Shown one piece after another: positions 1 to 7,099 of a stretch of 12,025 nt of DNA (position 1 is its first letter; every line of letters begins with the position of its first letter). The translations under genes and the position numbers were made by a program. The stretch is from Nitrospirota bacterium. Its GTDB lineage: Bacteria; Nitrospirota; Nitrospiria; Nitrospirales; Nitrospiraceae. The stretch is taken from contig VBOM01000019.1 in NCBI GenBank assembly GCA_005877535.1, positions 1 through 12,025 on the forward strand, given 5' to 3'. The notes beneath the pieces are model-generated. The model was not told the origin of the DNA. It worked only from the letters and a program-made list of their open reading frames with translations, and did no database searches.

Positions 1-1064
1 CCAACCGACAGAGTGTTGACCGATGAGCCAGTCTCCGTGTAGCCGTCGATCGTGACCCTGTGCGTGATCGTCGGCAGAGCGGAAGCCAGATTGATCGTAT
101 GCACACCCGCGCCGGCGATATTGAACACGATCGTGTCGAAATCTGCGCCCGTGTTGGCAGTGGTGATCACTGTACGCAATGAGCCCGCACCCGCATCGTT
201 CGTATTAGTGACGGTTAAGGTCCCCAGCGCATGGTCCCAGGCCGCCTGCGTGCTTGCACCGATCACAACTGAAGTGTCAATCGATCCGGTGGTGACCTCG
301 AGTTGCCAGTCTGCGTACTCAGAGGCACTGCCTGTCCGGTCCGTGCTCGCAGCCACATCAGCGCCGGTGAGAGTGGCCAACGTGTTCATTGCCAGTTGCC
401 CGGCTTCGCCACGGCCAAAGTCACAACCGTAGATCAGGAGGTCAGCGTCAGCGGATAAGCTCCGACCAATCTGTTGAAACTGTTCGGCATAGCTCGTGCT
501 GATCGAATCTTGCGTGAGGAAGCTGGCGCCGAGATGCATCTCGGCTTCGGTGCCATCACCAATCAGGTGGATCGCATCGATGCCCGTACGGCCCGCAAGA
601 ATCTCTGCCATTTGGGCTACGCCGTCACGGGACGGGTCGAGCACGTGCACTTCGACGTTGGGGCTGATGCCGTCGAGGAGTTGCTGGTAGTCGCGGACGC
701 TAGGGGACAGAAACACGATTTCCTGGCGGGCAGCCGATGCATCAAGCGCCGCCAGGGCATCGAAGAGAGCTTGGTCGCCAGTCGGCGCAGCGGGCGGTTC
801 TCCGGTCGGCGCAGCGGGCGCGGTATCTGCTGTCGCAGTTTTTTCAGCCGAGAAGGATGCATCAGCCTGGCTTTGCGCGACCTGCTCGGTGGTAACCTTG
901 CTCGCTGTCGCAGCCGACGCGCCGTCGAACATGATGCGCGATTCGAGCGAAAGCAATGACCCGCCGAAGGTCGACAGGGTGACGACGCGCGCATCCGCGG
1001 AGGCATGGTTGGGCCCTCGCGCTGGCTTGACTGCCGTTTTCTTCTGCTTACGTGGAATTCTCAT
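1..1064 (-). CDS. Giant surface/adhesin-like protein, N-terminal part (LEPR-like motif, DUF4347, beta-helix start); cut by left edge
   Basis: The frame is open from an ATG at 1064 to the window edge (354 codons, no stop), so only the N-terminus is seen. Residues 1-30 are basic. Residues 40-50 read LESRIMFDGAS, a variant of the LEPR-xLL/MFDGA motif that opens many very long secreted bacterial proteins. A low-complexity Ala/Pro/Thr linker follows. Residues 115-280 match DUF4347: IVFLSPSVRDY, then IHLIGDGTEAEMHLG, then LLIYGCDFGRGEAG and DVAASTDRTGS, ending in a W-x-LE strand. From 281 the LTVTNTNDAGAGSLR and HTINLASALPTIT stretches resemble right-handed beta-helix/CSLREA-type repeats. Such proteins are normally exported without a Sec signal and sit at the cell surface. 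The genes just upstream encode a TolC/HlyD/M50 export set, so this is their likely cargo. No good Shine-Dalgarno precedes the ATG; the start rests on the basic N-terminus and on the sigma-54 promoter about 36 bases upstream. In the position where the family usually has the His of SHG there is Asp170. Confidence 0.85.
   Translation of the reverse strand, partial: MRIPRKQKKTAVKPARGPNHASADARVVTLSTFGGSLLSLESRIMFDGASAATASKVTTEQVAQSQADASFSAEKTATADTAPAAPTGEPPAAPTGDQALFDALAALDASAARQEIVFLSPSVRDYQQLLDGISPNVEVHVLDPSRDGVAQMAEILAGRTGIDAIHLIGDGTEAEMHLGASFLTQDSISTSYAEQFQQIGRSLSADADLLIYGCDFGRGEAGQLAMNTLATLTGADVAASTDRTGSASEYADWQLEVTTGSIDTSVVIGASTQAAWDHALGTLTVTNTNDAGAGSLRTVITTANTGADFDTIVFNIAGAGVHTINLASALPTITHRVTIDGYTETGSSVNTLSV
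781..820 (-). repeat. Two-copy 24-base direct repeat coding Ala/Pro/Thr/Gly linker
   Basis: The 16-base word gtcggcgcagcgggcg occurs at 781-796 and again at 805-820, a 24-base period. It codes two copies of an eight-residue PAAPTGE/D-type unit in the linker between the LEPR-like motif and DUF4347. It is a small in-frame tandem duplication, likely variable in length between strains. Confidence 0.6.
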
Positions 1065-1110
1065 GGCATAGGGACGAAACCACTGGTCCTAGATCCTCAC
1101 CATAGAATCT

Positions 1111-1127
1111 AGCAAGGGTGGTGCCAG
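1111..1127 (-). promoter_or_regulatory. Sigma-54 (RpoN) -24/-12 promoter for the giant surface protein
   Basis: On the minus strand the sequence reads CTGGCACCACCCTTGCT. This matches the RpoN consensus TGGCAC-N5-TTGCW, with exactly ten bases between the invariant GG and GC. The predicted transcript start is near 1100, giving a leader of about 36 bases to the ATG at 1064. The site implies that the surface protein is transcribed on its own, under an enhancer-binding activator, separately from the export genes. Confidence 0.7.
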
Positions 1128-1230
1128 TTCTCGTAGCAAATTCATCTTTTTTACTGGCCAGTTAGACTGTACTCGGTGGGGAGGTTCGTCGAAGGCTGCA
1201 GAATGCGCTTTGGAGCGACATATACTGGTC

Positions 1231-1251
1231 TGACACCTTTGAGGGGGGTCA
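1231..1251. promoter_or_regulatory. Imperfect palindrome, candidate activator (enhancer) site
   Basis: A 21-base imperfect dyad with arms TGACACC and GGGGTCA around a 7-base centre (6 of 7 positions pair). Its centre is about 140 bases upstream of the start predicted for the sigma-54 promoter, a typical distance for an enhancer-binding protein site. It also lies 30-50 bases past the stop codon of the M50 gene and could instead be a weak hairpin at the operon end, but no T-run follows it. Confidence 0.3.
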
Positions 1252-1280
1252 ACAGTGAGAGCTGGCACTACGTATCTGTC

Positions 1281-3413
1281 CTAGGCACCGCTTTCGCGTA
1301 TGAAGATGCGGGCGCCCTGCTCCCAGGCTCGTTGGGCGAAGCTGATACGAGGGCCCTTCACCAGCACGGTCCCTCGCACAGCTTGGTTCCATCGGGGCGA
1401 CGACCCGACGAGATGCAGGGTAACGCGATAGACGGAGGTTTCCGGTTTCAATCTGCGATTGGCATCTTCTCGAACCGGTACGTCTCCGCCATAGAGAGAT
1501 GCAAGGTAGGGCACCGTGAAGCTGCTTTCGTCGATGTCTCGAATCTCGACAACCAGCGCCTCCAAGCTCGGCCGATCCGGCCCCTGGGGAATGAATCGAG
1601 CTGATTGACCCGCGTGGAGATAGCCGACGTCCGTCTCGGGAGCCAGTGCATGCAGCTCTTCACCCGCCGGATCAATCACGTACGCGAGTGGCAGCTCCTT
1701 GTTGATCCACTGTCCCACGTGCAGGGCTTCCGCTCGGTCGGTCACCACTCCCGCGATCGGCGTCGTTAGTGCTAGATTCCGCTGCTGCTGTAGTAGGTCT
1801 TCAAACTGTGAGAGGCGAGCCTTCAAGGTTTCCAACGTCACCTGGTGCTTCGCGAGCTCTTGCCGGTCGACGAACTGGCGCTGGCCCCTCAACTGCTCTA
1901 CCTCAATCCGCTTACGTGTCAACGCCATATCTTTTTCAAGCACCGGCGATTCCAACACAACCAGCCTGTCCCCCACTTCCACCCGCCGCCCTTCTTTTGC
2001 CGCCAGTTCGACAATCCTCCCAGGCACCGGCGCATAGATTGTGGCGTGTGGCGTCGATTCCAACACCGCAGGGAGGCTGATGCGATCGGACCAGGGAATG
2101 AACAGCACTGCCATCAGGAAGGCCAGGAAACCGACCGATGCCCATGCTCGGCCCTGTTTAGGAATCGCTCCGCGTAAGGTCCACCAGGCCTTGAGCTCGC
2201 GCACGATCGGGAGCACGATGAACCAACCGATCTCGATTGCAAATAAGATCAGGCCCAAAAGTTTAAAAAAATAGTGGTACACCATCAGCGCGATGCCGAG
2301 AAACAGCGTGACGCGGTATGCCCACACCCCCCAGGCAAACCAGACCAAGAATCGGCGTTGGGCAGCGGCAACCGGCTCGGGCATCGGCATATCCAGGCCG
2401 AGCAGGAGTCGCCGTAGTTGCCACCGCCCGAAGGCAAAGGCTCGATCGTGCAAGTTGGGAATACCTAACAAATCGGAGAGCACATAGTACCCATCGAATC
2501 GCATGAACGGGCTCAAATTAATGCCAGCGCCTACCATCAGACTCGTGGTCGCCACGATAAACACTAAGCTCCGCGCCACGCCGTCATCGAGAAAGTTCCA
2601 CGCGAAAATCGCCAGGGCGGCCAACGCGCATTCGACGACCATCCCGGCGGCGCCGATGGCGGCACGCTGGTGACGGGAGGTCAGTTTCCACGCATCGGAG
2701 GTGTCCGAATACAGCATCGGCACCATCACGACCATGGCAATGCCCATGGTGGGGACCCGACAGCCATAGCGTGTCGCCGTATAGGCATGCCCAAGTTCAT
2801 GAAACATTTTGACGACGGCCAGGCTGAGGGCGTACAGCGCGAGGCCACGCGGGGTGAAAAAATGCAGGACGGTGGCTGTGAATGTGTCCCACTGCCGCGA
2901 GACGAGATAGACACCCGCCAGCCCGATGAGCGCGATAATCCAGGCAATCGATTTTGAAAAGAGCCAGTCGACGAAGGGAAGAGTCGCGCGCAGGAATCGA
3001 TCCGGCCGGACCAGCGGAATCTGGAAGAATAGATAGTGGTGGACGAGCCACATCAGCCATTGTGGCCTTGCGGCTTCTACATAGGCCACATAAGCTCGGT
3101 AGCCCCCCTGCGGTGGTTCCCGCATAAGATGGTTCCCATATAAGAACCGTAGAAGATCGTCGATATCCTGCCTGGTGGCGTGGCAGGTTGTCTCCGCACG
3201 GATCTGCGACAGGACAGCCTGTGCCGATTGATCATTCCAACGCGAAAGAATCTGGTAGGCAGCCCAGCCGATCTGAAAATATTTCCCGCGGACCGGATCG
3301 ACGATGACCCATGTGGGCGAACCGTCGGTGGCTGAGGCACCAGCGATGAGCCGCAGATCCTCACGCAACGGAGGCAGCACGGCATCCTGCTTGGGGAGCG
3401 TGGCCGGCTTCAT
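1281..3413 (-). CDS. PqqD-like / M50 site-2 protease / HlyD-like fusion, polytopic export protein
   Basis: 710 residues from the ATG at 3413, which overlaps the stop of the upstream adaptor gene as ATGA; an ATG at 3425 is the alternative. Residues about 14-98 resemble a PqqD-like domain (REDLRL, then VIVDPVRGKYFQIGWAAYQIL, then a small helical bundle). A membrane block of several segments follows (about 154-440). It carries the zinc-protease motif HELGH at 205-209 and the second M50 motif FMRFDGYY with Asp307. From about 445 to the end it is HlyD-like: a lipoyl half (YAPVPGRIVELAAKEGRRVE), a coiled-coil hairpin at about 492-546, the second lipoyl half (TTPIAGVVTD) and a beta-barrel part. So one protein joins substrate recognition, intramembrane proteolysis and a periplasmic arm. 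Both motifs are intact, so proteolysis is plausible. The family is usually annotated as site-2 protease/biotin-lipoyl-binding protein; its substrate is inferred here from the adjacent giant protein gene. Confidence 0.92.
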   Translation of the reverse strand: MKPATLPKQDAVLPPLREDLRLIAGASATDGSPTWVIVDPVRGKYFQIGWAAYQILSRWNDQSAQAVLSQIRAETTCHATRQDIDDLLRFLYGNHLMREPPQGGYRAYVAYVEAARPQWLMWLVHHYLFFQIPLVRPDRFLRATLPFVDWLFSKSIAWIIALIGLAGVYLVSRQWDTFTATVLHFFTPRGLALYALSLAVVKMFHELGHAYTATRYGCRVPTMGIAMVVMVPMLYSDTSDAWKLTSRHQRAAIGAAGMVVECALAALAIFAWNFLDDGVARSLVFIVATTSLMVGAGINLSPFMRFDGYYVLSDLLGIPNLHDRAFAFGRWQLRRLLLGLDMPMPEPVAAAQRRFLVWFAWGVWAYRVTLFLGIALMVYHYFFKLLGLILFAIEIGWFIVLPIVRELKAWWTLRGAIPKQGRAWASVGFLAFLMAVLFIPWSDRISLPAVLESTPHATIYAPVPGRIVELAAKEGRRVEVGDRLVVLESPVLEKDMALTRKRIEVEQLRGQRQFVDRQELAKHQVTLETLKARLSQFEDLLQQQRNLALTTPIAGVVTDRAEALHVGQWINKELPLAYVIDPAGEELHALAPETDVGYLHAGQSARFIPQGPDRPSLEALVVEIRDIDESSFTVPYLASLYGGDVPVREDANRRLKPETSVYRVTLHLVGSSPRWNQAVRGTVLVKGPRISFAQRAWEQGARIFIRESGA

Positions 3414-4774
3414 AGCCCAATCCATGGTCGGATGGCGGAGATCGGGCGACGGAACAGATAGGTGAACAACAGTACCTGCTCTCCATAGATTTTGGCACTT
3501 CCTTGCCAACCGATACGGAATTCCGAGGACCCCTGCCCAAGCTGTGCCATCACGCGGTAGGCCAGCCTATTGTTCGACAAGACCTCCGCATGGTAACTCG
3601 CATGACTAACCGTGGCAGGAACGCTGGAGAAGGGATTGGCATTCAGGAAGAGTGCCACCGATGCGCCTTCGTGCAACACAATGGCATCTTCCACCGGCAG
3701 ATCGATCCGAACCTCCAGCTGTTGCGGGTTCGCCAGTTCCATGATGCGTTGGCCGACCACGACCGGTTTCCCTATCCAATCGGACTTGTCCGTGTAGAGC
3801 AACAGCCCGGCTTGCTCTGCCTTCACCTCGACCTTCGCCAACCGTTCATAAGTATAGTTCCGCTCGGTTTCTCGCAACTCGACTTCGGCTTTCGACAACG
3901 GAACTTCGGCCTTTTGTTCCGCTTCCACGAATGAGCCTTGCGCCGCGCGCCGATACTGCGCCATCGCCACGTCGAGGTTCCGTTCCGCAACGTCATACTC
4001 ACTTCTGAACGTGGTGTCTTCGTATTTGAACAAGACTTGGCCTTCGGACACGGCGGTATTGGGGAGGACGAGAATCTCGGCGATGACACCGTCGATCGGC
4101 GCGCTCACGATCAGAGGATCCTTTGCGACAATCTTCGCAGGCGCCAGCGTCGACATAGGGACGGGAATGGCCAGTGCGCCCAGCGTTGCAGCCGCGAGTA
4201 TCCACGTCGTGGTCCGGCTCAGTCCCCATCGCCACCGACGGCTGTTCGATGGGCCGACGGCATGCCAAGCATAGGCATAGGCTTCGCTGAGCCGCTGCAG
4301 GATCGGCACCTCGAAGTCCGCCCATGGTTGGTCCCGCGTCAGCCACAGACCGCCGAGGATCTGTCCACCCGGGTGCTTGAGCGGACACCATAGTCCATAG
4401 CCTGGAGTAAATTCCTTCCAGTCTGGTCTGAGTTCGGTAGGACAATCCGCTTCCGTGACGTGACTGATGTCCGGCCCTGTCGAGGTCCTGCGCAGACCTC
4501 CAATCAATCGCTCGGTCCATTGCATCAAGGGCACGGTGCGATCCACCACCGGGACGCTCGATGCGGCTCTTACCTGATAACTCTGTGTCGACGGGTTCGG
4601 CGGGCTGAGCAGGATTGCTTGTTGATAGGGAATCAACCGGCGCGTTTCATTGACGAAGAGAAATTGCAGTTCTTGCTGGGTCTGGACGGCGCGAACCTTC
4701 CCTTCCACCTGAAGCAACGTGTAGACCACCGCGTTCTTCGGCAGGCTGTGTGGCTTACTTTCTGCTGCGATCAT
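3410..4774 (-). CDS. HlyD-type periplasmic adaptor with cytoplasmic GAF-like N-terminal domain
   Basis: 454 residues. Residues about 20-170 form an alpha/beta region before any membrane segment, resembling a GAF-type sensor (ELQFLFVNETRRLIPYQQAILL opening helix and strand; PGYGLWCPLKHPGGQILGGLWL near its end). One membrane segment follows at about 190-208. Then comes a membrane-fusion-protein body: a first lipoyl half (IVSAPIDGVIAEILVLPNTAVSEGQVLF), a helical hairpin at about 255-320, the second half and a C-terminal beta-barrel. The start ATG lies one base after the stop of the preceding adaptor gene, and the stop overlaps the M50-fusion start, so all are translated as one unit. The role inferred is an inner-membrane adaptor linking the M50 fusion to the TolC channel, with a cytoplasmic domain that could sense a ligand or contact a partner. 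Ordinary HlyD proteins have only a short cytoplasmic tail. Confidence 0.88.
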   Translation of the reverse strand: MIAAESKPHSLPKNAVVYTLLQVEGKVRAVQTQQELQFLFVNETRRLIPYQQAILLSPPNPSTQSYQVRAASSVPVVDRTVPLMQWTERLIGGLRRTSTGPDISHVTEADCPTELRPDWKEFTPGYGLWCPLKHPGGQILGGLWLTRDQPWADFEVPILQRLSEAYAYAWHAVGPSNSRRWRWGLSRTTTWILAAATLGALAIPVPMSTLAPAKIVAKDPLIVSAPIDGVIAEILVLPNTAVSEGQVLFKYEDTTFRSEYDVAERNLDVAMAQYRRAAQGSFVEAEQKAEVPLSKAEVELRETERNYTYERLAKVEVKAEQAGLLLYTDKSDWIGKPVVVGQRIMELANPQQLEVRIDLPVEDAIVLHEGASVALFLNANPFSSVPATVSHASYHAEVLSNNRLAYRVMAQLGQGSSEFRIGWQGSAKIYGEQVLLFTYLFRRPISAIRPWIGL

Positions 4775-4775
4775 A

Positions 4776-5564
4776 TCAGTGTGGGAGTTCAGCGAACGAG
4801 GCGGTCCCGCTCATGCCTGCCAGCACATTGTCGGGCTGGGTGCGGAACAGACCCTTCACCTTCACCGTCTGGCTGGCAGGGTCGACGTTCGCGCCTATGT
4901 CCTGAACCACGGCTGGGTAGCGGAGTCCCGTTTCATCTACGGCGTACTCGAAGGGCGTGCCGACCTTCAGCCACGCGAGGGACTTCGACGGCAAAATGAG
5001 CGCGATCTCGAGCAGGCTATCATCCAACAGGCTAATGAGCTGGTCGTTGGGAAATACATTTTCGTGTTCGTTCACGATCGTTTTGACGACACGTCCGGGA
5101 AAGGGTGCGCGCACCGTGCAGCCTTTCACATTGACTTGCGCAGCGCTCACGGCGGCGAAAGCTTTTTCGGCTTCGGCCTGAGAGACATCGATTTCGAGTG
5201 TCCCAACGGAATCGTGCTTGGCGAGCCGGAGGTTGTTCTCGTAGGTCTTTCTCCTGCCGCGATATTCCGCCTGGGCGCTCGCCAGTTCCGCCTCATACTT
5301 CGAACAGTCGAGGGCGACCAGGAGGGCTCCTTTTTTAAACCGCTGTCCCTCCTTGAAGGGCAACTGGCTGATCCGTCCCTGAACCTGGCTGGCTAAGGTG
5401 GCTTGTGCGGTCGCCTTCACCACCCCTCGGATCGTGCTGAGTTCTGCCGCGCTGCTTGCGGGCTTGGGATCTGACTTGGTGCCGGCCGTTGCCAGCAGCA
5501 TCGATGTCAGGAGCCACAGGCCCAGGATCGAGCCACCGATCAGCAGCCAACGGGGACAGGTCAT
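4776..5564 (-). CDS. Short HlyD/RND-type periplasmic adaptor (membrane fusion protein)
   Basis: 262 residues from the ATG at 5564. That start is preferred over one nine codons upstream because AAGGAG (5573-5578) sits 8 bases before it and because the ATGA overlaps the TolC-family stop. One N-terminal hydrophobic segment at about 6-27 is an anchor or uncleaved signal. A first lipoyl half lies at about 55-86 (ASQVQGRISQLPFKEGQRF), a short alpha-hairpin at 87-147, a second lipoyl half at 148-182 (VRAPFPGRVVKTIVNEHENV) and a beta-barrel to the end. The short hairpin and length fit RND/CusB-like adaptors rather than classic HlyD, but no RND pump is encoded nearby. It probably stacks with the TolC-family protein and the second adaptor to span the periplasm. 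Confidence 0.9.
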   Translation of the reverse strand: MTCPRWLLIGGSILGLWLLTSMLLATAGTKSDPKPASSAAELSTIRGVVKATAQATLASQVQGRISQLPFKEGQRFKKGALLVALDCSKYEAELASAQAEYRGRRKTYENNLRLAKHDSVGTLEIDVSQAEAEKAFAAVSAAQVNVKGCTVRAPFPGRVVKTIVNEHENVFPNDQLISLLDDSLLEIALILPSKSLAWLKVGTPFEYAVDETGLRYPAVVQDIGANVDPASQTVKVKGLFRTQPDNVLAGMSGTASFAELPH

Positions 5565-7099
5565 TTGAGTAACTCCTTGCTTTTCGCCCATCGCGTACGA
5601 ATTTCAAGGGCAAGGTCCGCCACGCTCTGTTCCTGCGTCAGATCGTTGGGCAGCACATCTTCTCCGACGGCGGCCAGGAGCGACGCCCAGGAGCTTTGGA
5701 GTTCCGCCTCCATGGCATCGTATCGCAGTTGCGCCGCTACCTGATTGACTCGCTCGCGCAGCATGGCCTGTTCGCTCAATCGGGCCATCCGCCATGCCAG
5801 GCGCGTCTGATCGGCAATTTGGGACTGCGTGTCGTGATAGAGCCTCGCTGTCGAGGTTTCTTTCTTCGCCTGTGCCACCTGCGCCACGCTGACATGCACT
5901 TGCGACATGATGGCCATGGTCAGCGCGAGAGTCTGCGTGTGCAGAACCTTATCTTGCGCCTCAATGGTCTTCGCCCGGGCCGGATACCGAAATATGTTCA
6001 GCAAGTTCCAGCTGGCCCGTGCGGCATAGGCGGCCCAATTGTTATGGAAGAGAAAGCTGTTGCTGTTGTAGTTCTCGCCGACTTGGAGATTCAGGCTGGG
6101 GAGCATTTCAAGGAGTGCCGCTTTGGCCTCGCGCGCGTTGATGCGACGACGGTAATCGATCATCCTCAGCTCCGGGCGTGCTTCCAGAGCCCGATCCTCC
6201 AGCACCGTCATATCAAGCGGAAGGTTCAGCGTTCTGGCCTCTCGCTCAGGAACCATGAGTACCATCTCGTGCTCTCGTCCTGGGGGAAGATTGATCAGCG
6301 CGGCCACTTGAAGCTTCGCTGCAACGAGCTCCCGGAACAGCTGTTGAATGTATCGTTGCGTATTCAGGAGATCGAGCTTGTACTGCAAGGGAACCAGCGG
6401 CGAACTGAGCTTTTCATCCTGGACGGCTTGGGCCTTCTCGAGAGCGTTCTTGACCCACTCATCCAGCATCTTCAGGGACGGAAGAATCCGCTCCGCGCTG
6501 ACGGCCCGCCAATAGGCGGCCCGCACATCCTGCATCACGCGATTGGCCACGCGCCGCCGTTCTTCCTCAGCGATCATCACGTCGTCGGCCGCCTGCTTCG
6601 CCCGGATGTATGACATTCCGAAATCCAACACATTCCAGCTGAGTGACAGATCGCCCGAGAAAACGTTTTTTTCAGACGAGGTAAAGGGTTCGAGGACCTG
6701 GTTCCCCGTAATCAAGGACCGCGCAAATCCTCCGGTGAAATTATTGCGACCGTCGAATCCTGCGTTCGCCGCAAGACGAGGCAACATTGCATAGTGAGAC
6801 AGGTCGAGTTGGGTCTGCGCCAGCATCTTGTGCATCAGCTCGACGCGCGCGTCGAGGTTATACTTCAGCGCGCGCGCCATCGCTTCGTAGAGATCGATCG
6901 GTCCGGAGACGGGTTCTTGATCCTTTGTCAGAACGGCCCGGTCTTCATACACTCGTGATTGCACCTCGGCCGTCGTCAACGGTATCGGTTTGATTGCACA
7001 ACTGCTCAGACCGATGATGGCGAAGGTCGTCAGCACCGCCAGCAAAGGGCCGGTCATGCCGCACGATCGTTCGGTTGGATAATTTAGCCCGTTCACCAC
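5561..7099 (-). CDS. TolC-family outer-membrane efflux/secretion lipoprotein
   Basis: 512 residues from the GTG at 7099, which has AGGAAAG at a good distance (AGGA at 7107-7110). A TTG at 7159 would add 20 residues with no ribosome site, and an ATG at 7057 would begin right at the signal peptide. The signal ends in LSSC, a lipoprotein box, so the mature protein starts at a lipidated Cys. Long amphipathic helices and the two outer-membrane-efflux repeats follow (for example LSLSWNVLDFGMSY after the first helix pair and ARASWNLLNIFRYPARAK in the second). The family forms trimeric outer-membrane barrels with periplasmic alpha-tunnels. It is first in the four-gene operon and provides the exit channel for whatever the adaptors and the M50 fusion move, most likely the giant surface protein. 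Confidence 0.93.
   Translation of the reverse strand: MVNGLNYPTERSCGMTGPLLAVLTTFAIIGLSSCAIKPIPLTTAEVQSRVYEDRAVLTKDQEPVSGPIDLYEAMARALKYNLDARVELMHKMLAQTQLDLSHYAMLPRLAANAGFDGRNNFTGGFARSLITGNQVLEPFTSSEKNVFSGDLSLSWNVLDFGMSYIRAKQAADDVMIAEEERRRVANRVMQDVRAAYWRAVSAERILPSLKMLDEWVKNALEKAQAVQDEKLSSPLVPLQYKLDLLNTQRYIQQLFRELVAAKLQVAALINLPPGREHEMVLMVPEREARTLNLPLDMTVLEDRALEARPELRMIDYRRRINAREAKAALLEMLPSLNLQVGENYNSNSFLFHNNWAAYAARASWNLLNIFRYPARAKTIEAQDKVLHTQTLALTMAIMSQVHVSVAQVAQAKKETSTARLYHDTQSQIADQTRLAWRMARLSEQAMLRERVNQVAAQLRYDAMEAELQSSWASLLAAVGEDVLPNDLTQEQSVADLALEIRTRWAKSKELLK
5573..5578 (-). promoter_or_regulatory. Ribosome binding site deciding the adaptor start
   Basis: AAGGAG on the minus strand, 8 bases before the ATG at 5564 and inside the last codons of the TolC-family gene. 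It fixes the adaptor start and indicates translational coupling through the ATGA overlap. Confidence 0.75.

Follow-up and report, generated by a model that had tools for sequence, protein, structure and literature searches.

What carries a giant surface protein out of the cell when the genes beside it encode a TolC channel and HlyD-type adaptors, and an intramembrane protease stands where an ATP-binding cassette (ABC) ATPase would be expected? This question was raised by contig VBOM01000019.1 of a Nitrospira draft genome (2.3 Mb, 79.8% complete), which was analysed as one whole contig of 12,025 nucleotides and is here called the window. Its minus strand carries a TolC lipoprotein, a short adaptor, an HlyD-type protein with a GAF-like N-terminus (GAF-HlyD), a fusion of an M50 metalloprotease with HlyD (M50-HlyD), and the start of a giant gene. 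With a probability of roughly 60%, the first four genes form a dedicated TolC-dependent exporter for giant surface proteins that bear a LEPR-type tag, in which the M50-HlyD fusion replaces the ABC ATPase at the inner membrane. The evidence comes mainly from the pairing of the fusion with such giants across genomes, from the match between tag type and exporter subfamily, and from the gene content of the operon.

The operon and the giant gene in the window

The features concerned were located as follows.

5561..7057, minus strand: TolC-family outer-membrane factor, predicted lipoprotein (OEP PF02321, E 1.3e-29)
4776..5564, minus strand: short periplasmic adaptor, or membrane fusion protein (MFP; HlyD_D23, E 1.8e-13)
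3410..4774, minus strand: HlyD-type adaptor with a GAF-like N-terminus (HlyD_3, E 6.1e-12)
1281..3413, minus strand: M50 intramembrane metalloprotease with a C-terminal HlyD part and a PqqD-like N-terminus, 710 residues (Pfam M50, E 4e-8; HlyD_3, E 2e-14)
3..1064, minus strand: N-terminus of the giant cargo (DUF4347, E 9.2e-53), truncated at base 1, where the contig stops
915..950, minus strand: LEPR-like cargo tag SLESRIMFDGAS, residues 39-50 (relaxed motif)
225..719, minus strand: DUF4347 domain with a caspase/CHAT-like fold (PF14252 placement, structure model, fold search and alignment)

As the initial annotation had described, the four genes are tightly coupled and co-directional with the giant: TolC and MFP overlap at ATGA, MFP and GAF-HlyD are separated by a 1-base gap, GAF-HlyD and M50-HlyD again overlap at ATGA, and 216 bases lie between M50-HlyD and the giant. 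The likely start of TolC is 7057, with a hydrophobic N-terminus and an LSSC lipobox, and the frame is open back to 7159. The MFP frame was listed from 5591, and the start at 5564 sits after a Shine-Dalgarno-like AAGGAG; for M50-HlyD, homologues favour 3413 (710 residues) over 3509. The domain labels of that annotation held in part. TolC, HlyD, M50 and DUF4347 were recovered with Pfam, while PqqD and GAF stayed under their cut-offs and the NCBIfam LEPR-XLL model did not match. The short adaptor exceeded the RND_mfp cut-off (TIGR01730, 121.5 bits vs 94.9), and hydropathy placed a membrane segment of GAF-HlyD near residues 192-210. No ABC ATPase was found in the window with Pfam and the locus profiles, and Pfam revealed no resistance-nodulation-division pump gene among the 10 window proteins, a genome-wide search for one not having been made.

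The DUF4347 domain of the giant scored 178.8 bits against the PF14252 cut-off of 24.6. It has D at the usual His position and keeps the Cys, and the His-Cys dyad of clan CD is incomplete. Of 28 aligned DUF4347 domains, six, all from Nitrospirota, had D or E in place of the putative catalytic His, and the Cys was kept in five of the six.

Spread of the operon and its pairing with giant proteins

The loci compared were the best 80 of at least 357 places confirmed in a GTDB scan, and their frames were labelled by means of profiles derived from the window together with six plasmid loci. Going by record titles, the gene set ranged from Nitrospirota to alpha-, beta- and gammaproteobacteria and desulfobacteria. 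GAF-HlyD adjoined M50-HlyD in 77 of the 80 loci, and TolC, MFP and GAF-HlyD were all kept with M50-HlyD in 55 of the 68 loci that had at least 4.5 kb upstream. The recurrence of an identical gene set in several phyla confirmed that the layout is more than chance. On plasmid records of Azospirillum, Burkholderia, Escherichia coli, Kosakonia and Variovorax the order was giant-TolC-MFP-GAF/HlyD-M50/HlyD; the window and its relatives differ in that M50-HlyD precedes the giant. Cupriavidus metallidurans CH34 (L041) and an Azospirillum (L032) are among the strains that have the operon. The initial annotation had also noted that a linked ABC transporter was lacking, and this extended to the whole set: with a profile built from one HlyB-type sequence, an ABC ATPase was found inside the operon in 0/80 loci and somewhere in the fetched stretch in 11/80. 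One ABC frame was named in each of six of these 11. Five resembled ATPases of importers or other exporters (L047, L066, L068, L087 and L098), and the sixth, in Serratia (L100), was an HlyB next to its own HlyD on the opposite strand.

The pairing of M50-HlyD with LEPR/DUF4347 giants, which had been proposed as a check, was observed in both genome samples. Among 148 Nitrospirota genomes, a strong M50-HlyD was taken as one above 700 bits, a line drawn once the scores were seen to jump from 197.8 to 712.6 bits. Twenty genomes passed it, and two more (G135 and G145) had a weak paralogue alone; these two, which lacked DUF4347, were entered as negatives. DUF4347 was detected in 21 genomes, namely in 20/20 with a strong M50-HlyD vs 1/128 of the others (p 8e-24); within the family alone the counts were 19/19 vs 0/13. 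Outside Nitrospira, DUF4347 was present in 42 of 50 operon genomes (50 of the 80 loci).

In a sample of 200 Burkholderiales genomes, M50-HlyD subfamily I was found in 21, subfamily II in 24, and either in 42. DUF4347 occurred in 32 genomes, 27 of them with M50-HlyD, and LEPR-XLL in 35, of which 29 had M50-HlyD. One or the other was present in 37/42 M50-HlyD genomes vs 10/158 others (p 1e-25). A count with subfamily I only had been discarded: it left 14 DUF4347 genomes without M50-HlyD, and 12 stretches from 11 of them revealed subfamily II. The query for subfamily II was taken from a DUF4347 genome, so that the DUF4347 count was not blind to this query; the LEPR count served as a separate test of the pairing. 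In the six LEPR genomes without M50-HlyD, the frames with a match were 23 to 507 residues long.

Several neighbourhoods were recorded in addition. Twenty-four of 5426 complete E. coli genomes matched the operon, 22 of them across at least 80% of its length, and the places were on plasmids in 21 cases and on chromosomes in four; on one IncF plasmid (L034) the operon was flanked by IS5-like and IS1-like transposase genes. Genes annotated as tail fiber protein were neighbours of the cargo or operon: one in Burkholderia (L033 466-1080), three in Kosakonia (L035 17134-19241) and two in Azospirillum (L039 5374-7240). In Variovorax (L037 17279-25909) a type II secretion cluster followed the operon, and the cargo gene measured 48.7 kb. 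Phyllobacterium (L036 8812-17118) had, of the export genes, GAF-HlyD and M50-HlyD only, beside a gene annotated with an HrpK domain, and an HlyB-type system on the opposite strand. In a Pelagibacteraceae single-cell genome of ~0.8 Mb (L120), MFP, GAF-HlyD and M50-HlyD were accompanied by a DUF4347 frame that is 2371 residues long and bears the tag. Several Nitrospira genomes (L023, L024, L026-L030) carried a distant paralogue of M50-HlyD with 25-28% identity.

The cargo tag and the M50-HlyD protein

The cargo start with a recurring motif. Its D-type has the form LExR-[ML][FY]-D-[GA]-A, and a second exporter subfamily pairs with an S/A-type tag, LExR-LL-[SA]. The relaxed motif LE.R was found within the first 200 residues of 33/33 DUF4347 frames with closed 5' ends vs 4/5039 other frames; two of these four were Micavibrio proteins, one of which lay just before TolC. 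A first, stricter pattern had matched 28/33 DUF4347 cargo and was loosened after the other five were read, the background being 4/5039 both ways. The NCBIfam LEPR-XLL model (NF012209, 17-bit cut-off) did not match the window protein at E<=10. The motif itself was therefore used for the window, where SLESRIMFDGAS is a D-type variant. Five of ten cargo N-termini scanned exceeded the NF012209 cut-off, all five of S/A-type; the D-type tags in that scan were below the cut-off or unmatched. The tag was also present in genomes without DUF4347: LEPRMMFDAA in both Serratia and Pantoea, LEPRLMFDGA in Duganella, LEPRLLFDGA in G290, LEKRLMLDAS in Micavibrio, IEPRVLMSG in G357 and LESRLLMSAD in G390. Secreted proteins of Planctomycetes also have an N-terminal motif of similar kind.

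For tag typing, 60 of 77 LEPR places were fetched, six of them from genomes without the exporter. In genomes with subfamily I only, D followed the motif in 10/10; in those with subfamily II only, S or A followed in 33/33 (25, and 8 read in the frame of the match). Tag type and exporter subfamily were thus associated (10 vs 33, Fisher p 5e-10, uncorrected for relatedness). Eleven places came from genomes with both subfamilies, among which G226 and G285 showed both tags and the one place of G378 was A-type. In these drafts, many S/A-type cargo and the exporter lay on different contigs, so that close linkage may be an insufficient explanation of the match.

The catalytic residues of the fusion are conserved. 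H205, E206, H209 and D307 were invariant in the alignment of 35/35 homologues, all of which matched Pfam M50, and the same catalytic residues were present in 3/3 subfamily II proteins that were 24-26% identical to the window protein. These residues make up the HExxH and third-ligand Asp motifs that mark the membrane helices of M50 (site-2) proteases. In the structure model (predicted local distance difference test score 82.7) three parts can be told apart: an N-terminus of beta3-alpha3 form, a helical part in the membrane and an adaptor domain; strands at 21-48 and helices at 50-93 were predicted within this whole-protein model. In fold searches with the whole model, whose results were filled by the HlyD half, this adaptor half matched MacA and related adaptors. 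The N-terminus gave no solved-structure match. The Pfam PqqD model was found in 0/35 full-length M50-HlyD proteins, and isolated N-termini gave weak PqqD matches in 4/21 (Pfam) and 5/21 (lasso PqqD, NCBIfam).

A proposed export route and its alternatives

Here, a route is proposed for cargo in whose sequence no Sec-type signal is apparent and near whose N-terminus a basic stretch and an LExR tag are seen. The co-variation of tag and subfamily suggests that the M50-HlyD subunit recognises the tag, and its PqqD-like N-terminal domain may bind it in the cytoplasm; the role of PqqD-type domains in peptide systems is a further ground for this step. Given the invariant active-site residues, the M50 part probably cuts the tag, and cutting at or near it would license or release the cargo. 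The periplasmic HlyD domains of M50-HlyD and GAF-HlyD, together with the short adaptor, would then join TolC into a path to the surface, as their domain families suggest. The energy could be supplied by extracellular folding, by proton-motive force or by an unlinked ATPase. The suggestion of the initial annotation that the M50 protein may recognise, cleave or release the cargo is supported in part: recognition is now backed by the co-variation, and the evidence for cleavage is the conserved active site. We would extend this only tentatively, and with the odds somewhat against us, to a separate secretion system in which M50-HlyD acts as an inner-membrane gate that reads and cuts the N-terminal LExR tag and passes proteins of up to ~16,000 residues through TolC with no ABC ATPase, the two subfamilies each having their own tag dialect.

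Several points weigh against a dedicated exporter of this kind. The scheme lacks an energy source, and this role could fall to a housekeeping ABC exporter. In Nitrospirota a type I ABC transporter was found in 17/20 operon genomes vs 17/128 others (p 2e-10), and in Burkholderiales with subfamily I alone in 14/21 vs 67/179 (p 0.017). One published LEPR-XLL giant bears RTX and serralysin C-terminal domains, like type I cargo (PMC10868602). The pairing had exceptions: five of 42 Burkholderiales M50-HlyD genomes were without LEPR or DUF4347, and in one of these, G295, the frame before TolC carried no tag. Of the 13 genomes without DUF4347 that were read (G164, G167, G179 and G194 being left out), six had the tag, G295 had none, and for six the stretch that was fetched contained no cargo frame. 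Two labels were weak, PqqD (window PF05402, E 0.0045, 17.7 bits vs a cut-off of 23.4) and GAF (PF01590, E 0.046, below the cut-off). The co-variation of tag and exporter may reflect common descent, and all p-values given here overstate independence because the genomes are related.

Alternatively, the cargo may leave by type I secretion with an HlyB- or LapB-type ABC ATPase encoded elsewhere, M50-HlyD merely processing it. The TolC and HlyD parts fit this explanation, as do the ABC associations above, including those 20 of all 42 Burkholderiales M50-HlyD genomes that have a type I ABC transporter. A C-terminal motif also recalls type I signals: [FL]xxQ[LFVIM] was found in 38/52 proteins that end shortly before the operon, a few of which are not cargo, vs 166/2118 other frames and 254/5200 random stretches inside giants. 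Among the six Nitrospira cargo frames closed at their ends, one had the motif, and the C-terminus of the window cargo lies beyond the contig. The association with a type I ABC transporter was not significant in Nitrospirota within the family (17/19 vs 9/13, p 0.19), nor did the two Burkholderiales subfamilies together show one (20/42 vs 61/158, p 0.30). Moreover, 22 of the 42 had no TIGR03375 match at E<=1e-130 among the best 5 candidates scored per genome; such absences are provisional, since scoring was confined to a few top candidates in each genome.

The check for a distant HlyB/LapB-type transporter, also named in the initial annotation, showed that one is not always present. No Nitrospirota genome passed the LssB cut-off, HlyB-type transporters reaching ~450-581 bits on that model, where two HlyB calibrators scored 561 and 535 bits. 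By this HlyB yardstick, G000, G117 and G137 had M50-HlyD but no type I ABC transporter. G117 (99% complete) and G137 (98%) contain the whole operon followed by cargo tagged LEPRLMFDA and LEPRLLFDG, respectively, yet none of the nine ABC_membrane proteins found in them exceeded the HlyB, LssB or PrtD cut-offs. Two were MsbA and one was a cyclic-peptide exporter over their own cut-offs; the other six were below every listed cut-off, nearest to MsbA-, HepA- or CphA-associated models. One further ABC frame lies 1 kb away from the G117 operon; its nearest models were ABC-F (Uup, EttA), below cut-offs, and it was rejected as a transporter. In the window's own genome (80% complete), the best type I ABC match was 1e-94, in the MsbA range. 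Type I secretion in trans is regarded as unlikely.

It is also quite improbable that Sec moves the cargo over the inner membrane by an unusual signal and that the TolC/HlyD/M50 complex only carries it onward from the periplasm or releases it. A basic stretch does precede the tag, the Variovorax operon adjoins a type II secretion cluster, and two Nitrospira cargo (L043 12558-20996 and L044 12322-16770) end in a membrane-like segment with a charged tail. However, no h-region was found at the tag, whose core (LExR) is charged. Near the tag, hydropathy over 11 residues reached at best 0.93-1.98 in 28 cargo vs medians of 2.33 for 74 MFP and 2.50 for 71 TolC proteins, and a 19-residue hydrophobic segment was found in the first 150 residues of 0/33 cargo. 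From these sequences, no Sec signal is apparent in the cargo N-termini.

That the four genes are an efflux or peptide-maturation system resembling those with daptide or YydH-type M50 proteases, the giant being a mere neighbour, is very improbable. The M50 part does match the model for daptide metalloproteases (164 bits, E 5e-48, under its 300-bit cut-off). Against this stand the genome-wide pairing with LEPR/DUF4347 giants, some LEPR giants being encoded on a different contig, and the match of tag type to subfamily; moreover, Pfam reported no peptide maturase, radical-SAM or other, when the 10 window proteins were scanned.

The LEPR-XLL tag of very large bacterial proteins has so far had no assigned purpose; its pairing with an exporter gives a testable route by which these proteins may reach the surface, and a predictor of cargo from sequence. 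No exporter named for LEPR-XLL/DUF4347 proteins was found in the literature searched, nor was a description of such an exporter found in the open literature searched, most subscription journals and preprints lying outside it. Within that literature, the operon suggests an undescribed way of bringing giant proteins to the cell surface. A protease where an ATPase is expected raises the question of what powers the export of chains thousands of residues long.

Compared with known systems, the operon shares with type I secretion (HlyBD-TolC, LapBCE) a TolC-type channel, HlyD adaptors and surface cargo that are very large and lack a classical signal peptide. It differs in having no ABC ATPase, in the M50-HlyD fusion at that place, in its three HlyD-type proteins, and in a recurring tag that is N-terminal. 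With the M50 proteases of peptide systems (daptide, NF041824; YydH/LiaK, NF058609), M50-HlyD shares an M50 core with HExxH, and PqqD-like domains occur in M50 peptide systems. Unlike those proteases, it is below both cut-offs, is fused to a periplasmic HlyD, is encoded in an operon with TolC, and has giant genes beside it. The cargo resemble the LEPR-XLL (NF012209) and DUF4347 (PF14252) proteins, bearing the tag and often DUF4347. In Tce1 (PA0256, structure 9qpe), DUF4347 belongs to a small type VI effector, whereas here the domain heads a giant surface protein and, in the window copy, D occupies the His position.

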